A DNA stretch of 42,590 nt from Winogradskyella sp. (GTDB taxonomy: Bacteria; Bacteroidota; Bacteroidia; Flavobacteriales; Flavobacteriaceae). The notes under the pieces are model-generated. The model was not told the DNA's origin and did not search any database. It saw only the letters and a list, made by a program, of their open reading frames with translations. Position 1 is the stretch's first letter; every line of letters starts with the position of its first letter. Below are positions 20,853-38,262 of the stretch, piece after piece. The DNA is taken from the NCBI RefSeq assembly GCF_025210595.1, contig NZ_JAOARH010000051.1, positions 1 to 42,590 on the forward strand. The letters are read 5' to 3'. A program made the translations under genes and the position numbers.

Positions 20853-20880
20853 TGTCATCCTGAACTTGATTCAGGATCTA
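20853..20880 (+). repeat. REP-like palindrome, trpD-trpC gap (forward copy)
   Basis: ATCCTGAA (20857-20864), CTTGA loop, TTCAGGAT (20870-20877): perfect 8-bp stem, with the GTC before and CT after that recur in other copies. Member of the family also found at 23608, 23919, 27703, 29140, 29180 and 38237. Confidence 0.85.
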
Positions 20881-22328: not shown

Positions 22329-22406
22329 AGTTTAAAAGAATTGTATTGGAAAGTAAAAGATAAGTTTCCGTACAATTTCGATAAAAATCGAAAATCACTC
22401 AAACTA
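22310..22406. repeat. Inverted pair of ~45-bp repeats, trpF-trpB junction
   Basis: Copy 1 (22310-22354) and the reverse complement of copy 2 (22363-22406) both contain GAGTGATTTT followed about 15-20 nt later by AATTGTA and GGAAA. The copies themselves contain hairpins: ATCACT-TCG-AGTGAT at 22308-22322 and TTTCGAT-AAAA-ATCGAAA at 22376-22393. The head-to-head arrangement resembles a BIME. It overlaps the trpF stop and fills the gap before trpB. Confidence 0.7.
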
Positions 22407-22424
22407 ACGAGAAGGTTAAAAATT

Positions 22425-23606
22425 ATGAGTTATAACATTAACAACAAAGGCTATTACGGTGAATTTGGCGGAGCATATATACCAGAAATGCTTTATCCAA
22501 ATGTTGAAGAACTACGACAGAATTATTTAAAAATAATGGCTGAACCTTCATTTCAAAAAGATTTTCATCAATTATTAAAAGATTATGTTGGTCGTCCTTC
22601 ACCACTCTATTTTGCAAAACGTCTTTCAAAAAAACACAACACCAAAATCTATCTAAAAAGAGAAGACCTTAACCATACAGGTGCACATAAAATCAACAAT
22701 ACTATCGGACAAATACTTATGGCAAAACGCTTAGGTAAAAACAGAATTATTGCCGAAACTGGTGCTGGTCAGCATGGTGTTGCCACAGCTACTGTTTGTG
22801 CTTTAATGGGAATTGAATGCATTGTGTATATGGGAGAAATTGATATTGCAAGACAAGCACCTAATGTTGCTCGTATGAAAATGCTAGGTGCAGAAGTAAG
22901 ACCTGCACTATCAGGAAGCCGAACATTAAAAGATGCAACCAACGAAGCTATTCGTGATTGGATAAATAACCCTGTGGATACACATTATATTATTGGCTCA
23001 GTAATTGGGCCTCATCCATATCCAGATATGGTAACTAAATTTCAGTCTGTAATTTCAGAGGAAATCAAATGGCAACTTAAAGAAAAAGAAGGCAAAGAAA
23101 ATCCTGATTATGTAGTGGCTTGTATTGGTGGTGGCAGTAATGCTGCTGGCACTTATTATCACTTTTTAGACAATACAAATGTTAGAATCATTGCAATTGA
23201 AGCAGCAGGAAAAGGCATCAATTCTGGCAAAAGCGCAGCAACTTCAGCTCTTGGCAAAGAAGGTATTATTCATGGTTGTAAAACCTTATTAATGCAAACT
23301 AATGATGGGCAAATTACAGAGCCTTATTCTATTTCGGCTGGTTTAGATTATCCTGGTGTTGGCCCTTTACATTCCCATTTATATAAATCTGGTCGTGGTG
23401 AGTTTTACTCTGCAACAGACGATGAAGCTATGGCAGCAGGATTAGAATTATGCAAATTAGAAGGTATTATCCCAGCCATTGAAAGCGCTCATGCACTTGC
23501 TGTTTTTGAGCACAAATCGTTTCAACCTGATGATATTGTAGTTATTAGTTTATCTGGTCGTGGTGATAAAGATTTACAGAATTATATTGATTATTTTAAA
23601 TTTTAG
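22425..23606 (+). CDS. trpB: Tryptophan synthase beta chain
   Basis: 393 residues from the ATG at 22425. An in-frame TTG at 22341 would add 28 residues translated from the repeat and is rejected. PLP lysine is K89 in HTGAHKIN, the PLP phosphate loop is GGGSNAAG, and the segment ETGAGQHGVA holds the catalytic Glu region. Fold type II enzyme that condenses indole and serine; forms an alpha2beta2 complex with TrpA. Its partner gene is displaced by 392 bp because the GIY-YIG gene lies between them. Confidence 0.97.
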   Translation: MSYNINNKGYYGEFGGAYIPEMLYPNVEELRQNYLKIMAEPSFQKDFHQLLKDYVGRPSPLYFAKRLSKKHNTKIYLKREDLNHTGAHKINNTIGQILMAKRLGKNRIIAETGAGQHGVATATVCALMGIECIVYMGEIDIARQAPNVARMKMLGAEVRPALSGSRTLKDATNEAIRDWINNPVDTHYIIGSVIGPHPYPDMVTKFQSVISEEIKWQLKEKEGKENPDYVVACIGGGSNAAGTYYHFLDNTNVRIIAIEAAGKGINSGKSAATSALGKEGIIHGCKTLLMQTNDGQITEPYSISAGLDYPGVGPLHSHLYKSGRGEFYSATDDEAMAAGLELCKLEGIIPAIESAHALAVFEHKSFQPDDIVVISLSGRGDKDLQNYIDYFKF

Positions 23607-23607
23607 C

Positions 23608-23633
23608 GTCATGCTGAACTTGTTTCAGCATCT
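23608..23633 (+). repeat. REP-like palindrome left of the GIY-YIG gene (forward copy)
   Basis: ATGCTGAA (23611-23618), CTTGT loop, TTCAGCAT (23624-23631): perfect 8-bp stem, preceded by GTC and followed by CT. It begins one base after the trpB stop codon and ends 10 nt before the GIY-YIG ATG. Confidence 0.88.
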
Positions 23634-23641
23634 CAATAGAA

Positions 23642-23923
23642 ATGAAATACAGTTTTGTTTACATAATGACTAATACTTACAGAACAACTTTTTACATAGG
23701 TGCTATAACTAATTTGGAAAAAAGAATAACTGAACATGCTAATGGTACAGGTGCTCAGTTTACTAAAAAATATAATCTTAAAGATCTAATTTATTTTGAA
23801 AAACTTACAGACGTAAATCAAGCAATAGATAGAGAAAATCAATTAAAAAATTGGCATAAGGACTGGAAAATTAATTTAATTAAGAAAAAAAACCCAAAAC
23901 TTGAAACACTAAAAATTATGTGA
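23642..23923 (+). CDS. Small GIY-YIG nuclease-like protein inserted between trpB and trpA
   Basis: 93 residues, a single GIY-YIG domain of the small stand-alone type (UPF0213/YhbQ-like, often misannotated as UvrC-like). The motif pair is VYI at 6-8 and YIG at 18-20; the catalytic Arg is R28 (LEKRITEH) with H32, and the metal-binding Glu is E65 in DRENQLK. All key residues are present, so activity as a DNA nickase/nuclease is plausible. The gene is not part of Trp synthesis. It is bracketed by two REP-like palindromes in inverted orientation, and its stop codon overlaps the right-hand one, which suggests insertion as a unit. Confidence 0.9.
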   Translation: MKYSFVYIMTNTYRTTFYIGAITNLEKRITEHANGTGAQFTKKYNLKDLIYFEKLTDVNQAIDRENQLKNWHKDWKINLIKKKNPKLETLKIM

Positions 23924-23946
23924 CCCTGAAACAAGTTCAGGGTGAC
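23919..23946 (-). repeat. REP-like palindrome right of the GIY-YIG gene (reverse copy)
   Basis: ACCCTGAA (23923-23930), ACAAG loop, TTCAGGGT (23936-23943), followed by GAC. It is the reverse complement form of the element at 23608, so the gene between is flanked by inverted copies. The GIY-YIG stop codon (TGA 23921-23923) overlaps the stem. Confidence 0.88.
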
Positions 23947-23973
23947 GAAAATAAACTAATGTTTAATTAAAAG

Positions 23974-23994
23974 ATTTTCGCATTCGTAGAAAAT
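23974..23994 (+). repeat. Hairpin 4 nt upstream of the trpA start
   Basis: ATTTTC (23974-23979) pairs with GAAAAT (23989-23994), with GCATTCGTA between. Preceded by AAG as in the trpC and coaD hairpins. ATG at 23999. Confidence 0.6.
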
Positions 23995-23998
23995 AGAC

Positions 23999-24763
23999 AT
24001 GAATAGAATAAATCAAAAATTACAGGAAAACAAAAAGCTTCTTTCCATATACTTTACAGCAGGTTATCCTAATATTGATGATACGGTTAGCATCATTCAA
24101 AATTTAGAAAAATCTGGTGTAGATATGATTGAAATAGGACTGCCATTTAGTGATCCTTTAGCAGATGGACCAACGATACAAGCTAGCTCTACATCTGCAC
24201 TTAAACATGGAATGACAACCGAAAAACTATTTAAACAGCTAAAAAACATTCGTCAATCTGTATCAATTCCATTAATAATTATGGGCTATTTCAATCCTGT
24301 GTTACAATATGGTGTTGAAGCCTTTTGCAAAAAATGCCAAGACATTGGTATTGACGGACTTATTATTCCAGATTTACCAGCAGATATTTATGACGAATAC
24401 TACAAAACTACGTTTGAAAAATATAGTTTAATCAATGTCTTTTTAATAACTCCTCAAACTTCAGAAAAACGTATTCATTATATCGATTCCATTTCAAACG
24501 GATTCATTTATATGGTAAGTTCAGCAAGTACAACTGGAGCACAAACTGGCTTTGGCAACACACAAACAGACTACTTTAATCGTATAGCCAATATGCAACT
24601 TAGAAATCCGCAAATAGTTGGTTTTGGTATTTCAAACAATGATACTTTTACTCAAGCCACACAATATGCCAAAGGAGCAATAATAGGAAGTGCTTTTATA
24701 AAACATTTATCTAAACATGGTATCAATGAAATTGATAGCTTTGTAAAACAAATTATATACTAA
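23999..24763 (+). CDS. trpA: Tryptophan synthase alpha chain
   Basis: 254 residues, TIM-barrel. Splits indole-3-glycerol phosphate and passes indole to TrpB. Catalytic E45 and D56 lie in MIEIGLPFSDPLADGPTIQ (equivalent to E49/D60 of E. coli); phosphate-binding segments are VGFGIS and GAIIGSAF. Complete. It overlaps the next gene by one base (TAATG), so the methyltransferase is probably co-transcribed. Confidence 0.97.
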   Translation: MNRINQKLQENKKLLSIYFTAGYPNIDDTVSIIQNLEKSGVDMIEIGLPFSDPLADGPTIQASSTSALKHGMTTEKLFKQLKNIRQSVSIPLIIMGYFNPVLQYGVEAFCKKCQDIGIDGLIIPDLPADIYDEYYKTTFEKYSLINVFLITPQTSEKRIHYIDSISNGFIYMVSSASTTGAQTGFGNTQTDYFNRIANMQLRNPQIVGFGISNNDTFTQATQYAKGAIIGSAFIKHLSKHGINEIDSFVKQIIY

Positions 24764-27525: not shown

Positions 27526-28227
27526 TTAAAAATATTCAGAATATTGCATCACTCTAAAATCGAATGTATTAAAATTTGGATTTTTAGCTTTTAATTGCTT
27601 GTAAAGTGGTAATCTACTTATAGAAATATTGGCTGCACCTGAACCTGAGGTTAGAGACACTGTTTTTATGATTCTTTTTGGTTCATCAATCTTAGCTTTT
27701 TCAGATTCTGAAACAAGTTCAGATTCGCAAAGTGTAAACTGATGAATTCTCGGCACTTCGTTATTCACCAACTCCAACTTTAATCCATAATCCCTTATAT
27801 GTCTTCTAAAGAAATATTCTGGTCCGTTTTTACTGTTTCCTCCTGTAAACAAAATAGTTTCTATACTTGGATAGACTTTAAGATAACCAATAATATTTCT
27901 CAACTTAATGTTTTGCATACCCAAATCAGAAGCATCTATTTTTTCACGTTCTGCACTTTCTACGATGTCGCAAACACCTATTTTATGATTAATTAAAAAC
28001 TGCTTGCGCTCTTCAATAGCTTGTTGGGAATTATCGTATCTTAAATTGAGGTTATGAATTTTGTCTATAAATAACCATAAAGAATTATAGTAACTGCCAT
28101 AACAAAAATCAACGTCTTTTTCTAATAACTCACCTGTTGAAAATCTTGGTGGTGGCAACGTACCAACAATTAACTTTTTGGTATCTTTTTGTATAAAAGG
28201 CTTGTAAGGATGCTTATGAAAAAACAT
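27526..28227 (-). CDS. Uracil-DNA glycosylase family protein with an in-frame REP copy
   Basis: 233 residues. The LIVGTLPPPRF start and ETILFTGGNSKNGPEYFFRRH and KTVSLTSGSGAANISIS blocks match a UDG-superfamily group common in Bacteroidetes; the last block corresponds to the substrate-gripping loop. Substrate not established. Residues 167-176 (ESELVSESE region) are encoded by a near-perfect copy of the palindrome found between genes elsewhere in the window (27703-27727). The reading frame crosses it without a stop, so the protein has acquired an acidic insert between two conserved blocks. ATG overlaps the yaaA stop (TAATG). Confidence 0.82.
   Translation of the reverse strand: MFFHKHPYKPFIQKDTKKLIVGTLPPPRFSTGELLEKDVDFCYGSYYNSLWLFIDKIHNLNLRYDNSQQAIEERKQFLINHKIGVCDIVESAEREKIDASDLGMQNIKLRNIIGYLKVYPSIETILFTGGNSKNGPEYFFRRHIRDYGLKLELVNNEVPRIHQFTLCESELVSESEKAKIDEPKRIIKTVSLTSGSGAANISISRLPLYKQLKAKNPNFNTFDFRVMQYSEYF
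27703..27727 (-). repeat. REP-like palindrome inside a coding sequence
   Basis: ATTCTGAA (27705-27712), ACAAG loop, TTCAGATT (27718-27725). Differs from the copy at 38239-38259 only at the distal end of one arm. On the coding strand it is in the forward orientation. Confidence 0.8.
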
Positions 28228-29139: not shown

Positions 29140-29165
29140 GTCATGCTGAATTTATTTCAGCATCT
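29140..29165 (+). repeat. REP-like palindrome (forward copy of an inverted pair)
   Basis: ATGCTGAA (29143-29150), TTTAT loop, TTCAGCAT (29156-29163), preceded by GTC and followed by CT. It faces the reverse copy at 29180 with only about 15 bp between. Confidence 0.85.
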
Positions 29166-29179
29166 AAAATTTTAGAAGT

Positions 29180-29204
29180 AGATTCTGAAACAAGTTCAAA
29201 TGAC
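29180..29204 (-). repeat. REP-like palindrome (reverse copy, partly decayed)
   Basis: ATTCTGAA (29182-29189), ACAAG loop, TTCAAAT (29195-29201), then GAC. One arm has lost a base. With the copy at 29140 it forms the same forward/reverse pair that flanks the GIY-YIG gene, but without a gene inside. Confidence 0.75.
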
Positions 29205-38236: not shown

Positions 38237-38262
38237 AGATTCTGAAACAAGTTCAGAATAAC
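38237..38262 (-). repeat. REP-like palindrome between alaS and the GSCFA gene
   Basis: ATTCTGAA (38239-38246), ACAAG loop, TTCAGAAT (38252-38259): perfect 8-bp stem. It occupies almost the whole 36-bp gap and ends 4 bp before the alaS stop codon. Confidence 0.88.

Follow-up and report, generated by a model that had tools for sequence, protein, structure and literature searches.

Inverted CGTC-type REPs bracket standalone GIY-YIG nuclease genes in Winogradskyella and other bacteria: a candidate REP-type mobile system

Results

A GIY-YIG gene flanked by REPs separates trpB from trpA

The window, a 42.6-kb Winogradskyella contig, carries trpB (positions 22341 to 23606 on the + strand, an open reading frame as listed mechanically, with its stop at 23606) and trpA (23999 to 24763, + strand, with its start at 23999). 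Between these genes is a + strand unit (23607 to 23946) composed of a head-out REP, a GIY-YIG gene, and a head-out inverted REP, in the order head-REP-tail, gene, tail-REP-head. The forward palindrome begins at 23608, 1 base past the trpB stop, and reads GTC-ATGCTGAA-CTTGT-TTCAGCAT-CT. It is a CGTC-type REP of type A (GTCATGCTGAACTTGTTTCAGCATCT; 23608 to 23633, + strand, head out of the unit) that has 0 mismatches to the search pattern, an 8-bp stem, and a 5-nt loop. The nuclease gene (23642 to 23923, + strand) encodes 93 amino acids, and its stop codon is covered by an inverted type A REP (23921 to 23946, - strand, head out) with 3 mismatches to the pattern and a perfect 8-bp stem. The initial annotation of this DNA had reported a 93-codon GIY-YIG frame at this place, a forward palindrome one base after the trpB stop, and a reverse form across the end of the frame, and all three are present.

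The short spacer before trpA (23947 to 23998, + strand) contains an imperfect hairpin, seen by eye, that resembles the downstream palindrome of type D units located at trpB-trpA in other genera; read by eye, with no statistic attached, it is an older layer. Upstream of the trp genes, the window also contains a match to the Rfam Bacteroid-trp leader RNA (RF01692, 17526 to 17641).

The encoded protein belongs with the standalone GIY-YIG nucleases and is no RAYT. Comparison with Pfam returned the GIY-YIG domain (PF01541, 52.7 bits; cut-off 22.6) and no other domain in the 93 residues, so no added NUMOD-type DNA-binding domain was found. In all 39 aligned sequences nine residues are the same (Y7, Y18, G20, R28, H32, E53, E65, K69, and K76), the active-site Tyr, Tyr, Arg, and Glu among them; R28 and E65 had been listed as intact in the initial annotation. 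Solved relatives by sequence are the UPF0213 proteins BH0048 (1zg2) and EF2693 (1ywl) and the UvrC domain 1yd6. In domain, size, and catalytic residues, the window protein is like the standalone GIY-YIG proteins of PF01541 and UPF0213, BH0048 and EF2693 included, and the available text of the matches listed for those proteins describes no REP association. In 3 of 7 nuclease pairs dN was 0.03-0.09 compared with a dS of 0.7-1.0, dS being not estimable in the other four. The host genome has four GIY-YIG matches, namely the window gene, a 115-codon frame (L001), and two within frames of 258 and 456 codons. L001, on contig C120, is a second standalone GIY-YIG gene, beside which other hairpins are visible by eye, one of them approximately TTCCCGA...TCGGGAA.

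Type A REPs are dispersed in the window and the genome

Further type A REPs are present in the window as singles and as a pair. Single copies lie between trpD and trpC (20854 to 20879, + strand, 1 mismatch; the initial annotation had given 20853), at 27703 to 27728 (- strand), and at 38237 to 38262 (- strand, 1 mismatch). According to the pattern search and the list of open reading frames, the 27703 copy is coding rather than intergenic, as it is read in frame (CESELVSESE) inside the frame 27526-28227. The second forward-reverse pair that had been noted at 29140 to 29204 is also present; it is an inverted, REPIN-like pair without a gene, with a + strand copy at 29140-29165 and a - strand copy at about 29180-29204 that is not among the matches of the genome pattern search. 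REP pairs (REPINs) are a dispersed form of REPs in REPtron systems, and a GIY-YIG unit is a plausible source of the 29140 pair.

A genome-wide count, which had been proposed from the window alone, gave 31 matches to the type A pattern at up to 3 mismatches in the host genome (3.12 Mb, 157 contigs) and 0 for the backwards pattern. Six of the 31 copies are on the window contig (binomial P = 3.5e-6; P = 6e-4 without the two copies that flank the gene). At up to 2 mismatches the pattern had matches in 64 of 149 genomes of the family, with as many as 41 type A REPs per genome, and the backward control had 0 in all 149.

Each palindrome has an unpaired (C/T)GTC head and a short tail, and between them lies an 8-bp stem that starts with AT and encloses a 5-nt loop. 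The head is CGTC from 23607 and TGTC from 29139 and 20853, and GTCAT is found in most of the 31 genome copies. Searches of Rfam at the gathering threshold found no family for the palindromes. By the features tested (tag, stem, loop, and dispersal) they fit CGTC-type REPs, the tails in the window being CTCA or CTAA. In the accessible text of Di Nocera, De Gregorio, and Rocco (PMC3733652), CGTC REPs likewise have an unpaired CGTC or TGTC head, a stem of 8-9 bp starting with AT, and a loop of 4-5 nt; they occur as dispersed copies, dimers, and intragenic copies, and their hosts include Bacteroidetes and Alphaproteobacteria. The REPs described there differ from those in the window in having mostly a CCA tail, which we found in a type B locus (L134) and in several alphaproteobacterial relatives. 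The types counted below include other stems and longer loops, which the definition in that text may not cover.

Bracketing by REPs is common to standalone GIY-YIG genes of the family

A family sample of 149 genomes, one per genus, contained relatives of the window protein at E 1e-10 in 72 genomes. The loci used were 30 that were returned and 60 chosen stretches, with the remaining matching rows left out, and they yielded 94 distinct open reading frames of at least 75 residues after removal of the window duplicate, one long protein, fragments below 75 residues, and genes with internal stops. Control frames were called mechanically and came from these loci too, no closer than 400 bp to a GIY-YIG gene. 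A tagged hairpin upstream together with its inverse downstream, both within 200 bp, was found at 36 of 94 GIY-YIG frames and at 0 of 279 controls, and seven other tags yielded no pair at the 94 GIY-YIG frames and no more than one at the 279 controls. A second detector found the pair at 33 of 94 compared with 0 of 258 controls (thirteen other tags, 0 to 3 of 94). By contrast, none of the nine long GIY-YIG proteins that were complete in their loci had REP flanking.

When the upstream and downstream flanks were compared without reference to any tag, 50 of 94 GIY-YIG genes scored above the 99th percentile of the controls, as did 3 of 264 controls. With flanks swapped between two GIY-YIG genes 18 of 94 still did so, as is expected if types are shared, and the tag-free test therefore cannot show that both flanks belong together. 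Type patterns, which were derived from these same flanks, placed REPs on both sides of 57 of 94 genes, compared with 3 of 243 controls, and 76 of the 94 had a REP on one side or both; by these patterns of our own, 37 of 94 lack a recognised REP on one or both sides.

The orientation of the REPs was read from tagged REPs only, because regular-expression typing matched self-complementary types both ways. For the 174 GIY-YIG genes of this and the named-genome set (94 and 80), the nearest tagged REP within 150 bp had its head outward in 142 cases (72 upstream, 70 downstream) and inward in 28 (13 upstream, 15 downstream). The median distances were 25 nt from REP tail to gene start and 10 nt from gene stop to tail.

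The association extends to other bacterial groups

The named-genome set comprised the best 80 of 566 relatives, mostly from Alphaproteobacteria. Within these best 80 of 566, proper tagged pairs were found at 31 loci compared with 3 of 143 controls, seven other tags gave 0 of 80, and 49 loci failed the strict pair test; the tag-free flank comparison gave 31 of 79 compared with 2 of 150 controls and 6 of 79 mismatched pairs. The 31 loci include Bacteroidota (L229, L241, and L242, the last coinciding with L065 in the family set), a MAG of Armatimonadetes (L217), and one of UBP14 (L204). No locus of Ignavibacteriales, Elusimicrobiales, Omnitrophota, or Parcubacteria passed the strict pair test, although some (L206, L231) have tagged palindromes nearby.

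A second alphaproteobacterial sample, with little overlap with the named-genome set, covered 150 genomes of one order, 81 of which had relatives, and 40 loci were taken from the better matches. Properly oriented tagged REPs were present on both sides of 11 of 40 genes compared with 0 of 52 controls and on at least one side of 26 of 40 compared with 4 of 52, and ten other tags gave both sides at 0 of 40. Two loci (L315 and L325) are places shared with the named set (L188 and L225), and neither is among the 11. In this group, too, the palindromes beside the genes are dispersed repeats; one rhizobial REP type had 2 to 68 copies in 17 of the 25 genomes searched and none in the other 8.

In addition, the window protein, compared with plasmid records by tblastn, matched 33 of them, and eight were chosen for inspection. 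In seven of the eight plasmids (from Sinorhizobium, Sphingobium, Azospirillum, Novosphingobium, Shinella, Planktothrix, and Aeromonas) the gene is flanked upstream and downstream by CGTC-like palindromes, as judged by eye and by tagged search; in the Aeromonas plasmid (L132) the two flanking palindromes are in the same orientation. The Photobacterium plasmid (L130) has one palindrome, on one side only. Based on the results from these samples (36 of 94, 31 of 80, and 11 of 40 genes, compared with 0 of 279, 3 of 143, and 0 of 52 controls), the association of standalone GIY-YIG genes with REPs is close to certain, and GIY-YIG copies other than that of the window are strongly associated with palindromes. 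Where the initial annotation saw one local unit, a widespread system appears to exist.

The REP-bracketed unit of an Azospirillum lipoferum plasmid (L127) lies between sufB and sufC, a parallel to the trpB-trpA case, and that of the Planktothrix plasmid (L129) lies between a gene for an MmeI-type restriction enzyme and the DISARM gene drmA.

REP type follows nuclease clade

One REP type, from type patterns that are our own, could be given to 61 of the 94 family genes, and the 33 unlabelled genes were outside the test. On the nuclease protein tree the REP type changes 11 times, compared with a mean of 31.2 for shuffled labels (0 of 200 shuffles as low). When types were taken singly, A, B, and E clustered (0 of 500 shuffles as low), and D, F, and H clustered less or not at all (20, 39, and 66 of 500 as low). 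Shuffling labels only within genomes, 13 of which carry two or more types, gave a mean of 23.3 changes and a minimum of 16, with 0 of 500 as low as 11. Keeping one gene per shared context and type, a pruning that applied to four shared contexts with several labelled genes and left 48 genes, gave 11 changes compared with 27.9 shuffled (0 of 500 as low). These shuffles indicate that a nuclease tends to accompany the REP type of its own clade and not simply the commonest REP of its host. Part of this match could reflect shared descent of the flanks.

One clade, with a YILTHERNH-like motif, includes six frames without an assigned REP type (L081, L083, L102, L104, L108, and L113). L001 and L121 have their gene neighbourhood in common with these loci, and the clade is perhaps domesticated.

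REPs are more abundant in genomes that carry the nuclease

At least 5 type A REPs were found in 32 of the 72 family genomes with a nuclease relative and in 6 of the 77 without (P = 2e-7), and at least 5 type B REPs in 16 and 4, respectively (P = 0.003). Among relative-positive genomes, those whose loci are nearest to the window protein had at least 5 type A REPs in 23 of 30 cases compared with 9 of 42 for the others. In the alphaproteobacterial order, one exact REP pattern was present in 37 of 81 nuclease genomes compared with 11 of 69 without (P = 1e-4), and at 5 or more copies in 16 of 81 compared with 4 of 69 (P = 0.015). REPs were also enriched locally, with 9 extra type A copies in 29 three-kb loci compared with 0.21 expected, and tandem copies may account for part of this enrichment.

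At least one type A REP was present in 16 of the 77 GIY-negative genomes. Of eight REP-rich genomes without a relative, five (G034, G079, G096, G131, and G132) have distant standalone GIY-YIG genes, several of which are bracketed by other repeats when read by eye. The three exceptions (G051, G059, and G070) have 5 to 8 type A REPs and GIY-YIG matches only in frames of at least 280 codons. A distant standalone group with a YYVYILKCSDG-like motif (L244-L247, L249, L250, and L259) is likewise bracketed, by eye, by another repeat, for example CACTTCGACTGCGCTCAGTGTGAC.

Comparison of sites suggests gain, loss, and replacement of units

Rather than lying at one fixed place in all relatives, the 94 GIY-YIG genes occupy 68 contexts when both neighbours must agree and 51 when one shared neighbour suffices. 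Among 30 same-genus trpA loci that were examined, 23 showed a readable trpB-trpA junction. The initial annotation had proposed a search for an empty site, and at 8 of the 23 the unit is absent and trpB and trpA are directly joined, 1-2 bp apart. A GIY-YIG unit is present at three, which are the window, with type A REPs, and two loci from two species (L134 and L135), with a different nuclease that resembles the type B clade and with type B REPs. The remaining junctions are a REP pair without a gene (L139), two remnants (L151 and L154), and 9 spacers in which no REP was recognised. A further GIY-YIG clade, with type D palindromes, is located at trpB-trpA in six other genera. Comparison shows that this junction can be occupied, differently occupied, or directly joined.

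Derivatives of the unit were found at two loci. In L084 (G019) one full unit is followed by two units with the same internal gene deletion, each still bracketed, and in L125 a 5'-truncated nuclease copy lies between REPs beside a full unit. GIY-YIG genes are also clustered elsewhere; four lie within about 6 kb in L083 (G087), and the tandem of full and deleted units in L084 is a further cluster. A candidate for a strain-level empty site in Sinorhizobium (K101) was set aside, as the site keeps one collapsed palindrome.

At the codon site of the 27703 copy, 5 of 23 orthologues (the window included) are empty and 18 have extra codons. By eye, 16 of these 18 inserts are REP-like; they are of at least four types, and three are inverted pairs. 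The frame that contains them (27526-28227; orthologues L275-L296), by eye a uracil-DNA-glycosylase-type protein, is a REP insertion hot spot.

Discussion

Comparison of loci and genomes reveals the structure of the unit, the dispersal of its REPs as singles and inverted pairs, the matching of REP type to nuclease clade, the co-occurrence of REPs and nuclease, and the existence of derivatives. The explanation that we favor from these sequence comparisons, and that is probably correct, is that these units form a REP-type mobile system whose enzyme is a standalone GIY-YIG nuclease instead of the HUH transposase TnpA_REP (RAYT) of classical REPtrons. The initial annotation had suggested a RAYT-like role for the nuclease. 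Neither of the two outcomes that it had named as refuting its reading was observed. The pairing with REPs has held up, and the clade-type match, the co-occurrence, the deleted and truncated units at two loci, and the absence of a Y1 transposase match in the host genome make this role the best reading; its enzymatic side is something that we infer, and it is likely.

Two hallmarks of REPtrons are found here, inverted REPs that bracket an enzyme gene and REP abundance that correlates with the presence of the enzyme. As far as the accessible text of the REPtron literature goes (PMC8266576, PMC6006769, PMC3116915), TnpA_REP/RAYT genes are likewise REP-flanked and mostly single copy, and coevolution of enzyme and cognate REP is a further likeness. 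Single copy and a correlation of REP abundance with the enzyme are RAYT features noted in PMC8266576, and both are seen here. The systems differ in that a REPtron has an HUH Y1 transposase of the IS200/IS605 superfamily and a GTAG tag, whereas the units described here have a GIY-YIG nuclease and a CGTC tag.

The main rival to this explanation is a free-standing homing endonuclease gene for which REPs or REP pairs are the landing site, cut where the gene is absent and filled by repair, with the REPs themselves spread by something else. We consider this unlikely. In its favor, an inverted REP pair does enclose the gene, the GIY-YIG fold is a classic one among homing enzymes, and the catalytic domain is like that of I-TevI-type enzymes. 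The protein has a partial match to the NCBIfam group I intron endonuclease model (25.9 bits, below the 56.05 cut-off), REPs occur in some genomes without a standalone nuclease, and both type match and co-occurrence would follow from homing too. However, a homing gene is expected to fill many sites, and the few gene copies beside many REPs argue against it: genomes with up to 41 type A REPs have mostly one nuclease per small clade among the genes fetched, and in our reading of the tree two nucleases of one small clade occur only in G123, G087, and G085. Moreover, REPs are commoner in nuclease-bearing genomes, and, unlike GIY-YIG homing endonucleases, the window protein has no further Pfam domain, no intron or intein was seen around its gene, and dispersed palindromes bracket it.

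A less probable alternative is that the nuclease is a host repair or cruciform-resolving enzyme, similar to Slx1, that keeps REPs in check and is flanked by them for regulation or excision. In the accessible text of a GIY-YIG survey (PMC1564403), prokaryotic Slx1-family proteins are standalone GIY-YIG domains, and one clade does occupy trpB-trpA in six genera with palindromes that are similar by eye. A control enzyme should not accompany more REPs, though, and the patchy presence of the gene (72 of 149 genomes), its many contexts, and the presence in one genome of several clades that each have a REP type of their own all speak against a host function of this kind.

It is more improbable still that IS200-like Y1 transposases (RAYT) spread the REPs and that the GIY-YIG gene is a passenger. 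A search for Y1 transposases (PF01797) in 20 REP-rich genomes found them in 13, but none was found in 7, namely the window's own genome (a 157-contig draft with 31 REPs at up to 3 mismatches) and six others with 12 to 19 type A REPs; a RAYT as the mover in the window genome was rejected on this ground. In addition, the accessible text of Di Nocera et al. (PMC3733652) states that in CGTC-positive species none of the tyrosine transposase genes is flanked by CGTC REPs. Finally, chance or a general habit of hairpins such as terminators to bracket small genes has a negligible probability and was rejected, for although hairpins downstream of genes are common and tagged hairpins are found on one side of 10 and 7 of 279 controls, the pair is not shown by control frames, other tags, backward patterns, or long GIY-YIG genes.

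For the favored system, in which the nuclease serves its own REPs, the following mechanism can be proposed. The nuclease would recognise its own REP as a hairpin, either in single-stranded DNA at a replication fork or as a cruciform, and would make its cut in or close to the GTCAT head or the ATC tail. GIY-YIG enzymes hydrolyse DNA and are not known to join it, and the joining or insertion step must therefore come from the host. Replication and repair by the host, and not transposase-like strand transfer, would then establish a freed or re-copied REP or REP pair at a new site; the tandem arrays, whose linkers are similar (L084 and L125), fit such re-copying. The intact REP-gene-REP unit would move rarely and be kept at about one copy per type per genome, and deleted units, REP pairs, and single REPs would be its non-autonomous progeny.

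Among REPs, repeats that are widespread in bacteria, the GTAG class is paired with an enzyme, the RAYT, and the CGTC class was reported without one. In 2013, Di Nocera, De Gregorio, and Rocco described CGTC-tagged REPs as apparently lacking a dedicated transposase and suggested, in the text accessible to us, that they were going extinct or were moved by other transposases (PMC3733652). Their CGTC REPs have no associated transposase gene, and those described here differ in that they bracket a GIY-YIG gene. A link between GIY-YIG genes and REPs had no prior description among the literature matches listed, a scope that left aside subscription papers and preprints. By term count in the accessible text, the GIY-YIG survey (PMC1564403) never uses the word "palindrome", and a REP tool paper (PMC12306157) uses neither "nuclease" nor "transposase".

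A broader proposal, to which we give an even chance from the sequence data, is that standalone GIY-YIG nucleases are dedicated enzymes of CGTC-REP dissemination across bacteria, constituting a second, non-homologous origin of the partnership of REP and enzyme that would depend on cutting guided by structure and on host repair. The proposal would also cover cases in which one REP type takes over a site from another, and could so explain the CGTC REPs within proteins. If true, the proposal would answer the question of the CGTC-REP partner, give a function to many unexplained small nucleases, and make possible direct tests of how REPs spread and enter protein-coding genes.

At three loci (L139, L280, and L042) one REP type is inserted, by eye, inside the loop of another type, and REP loops are a possible target preference.
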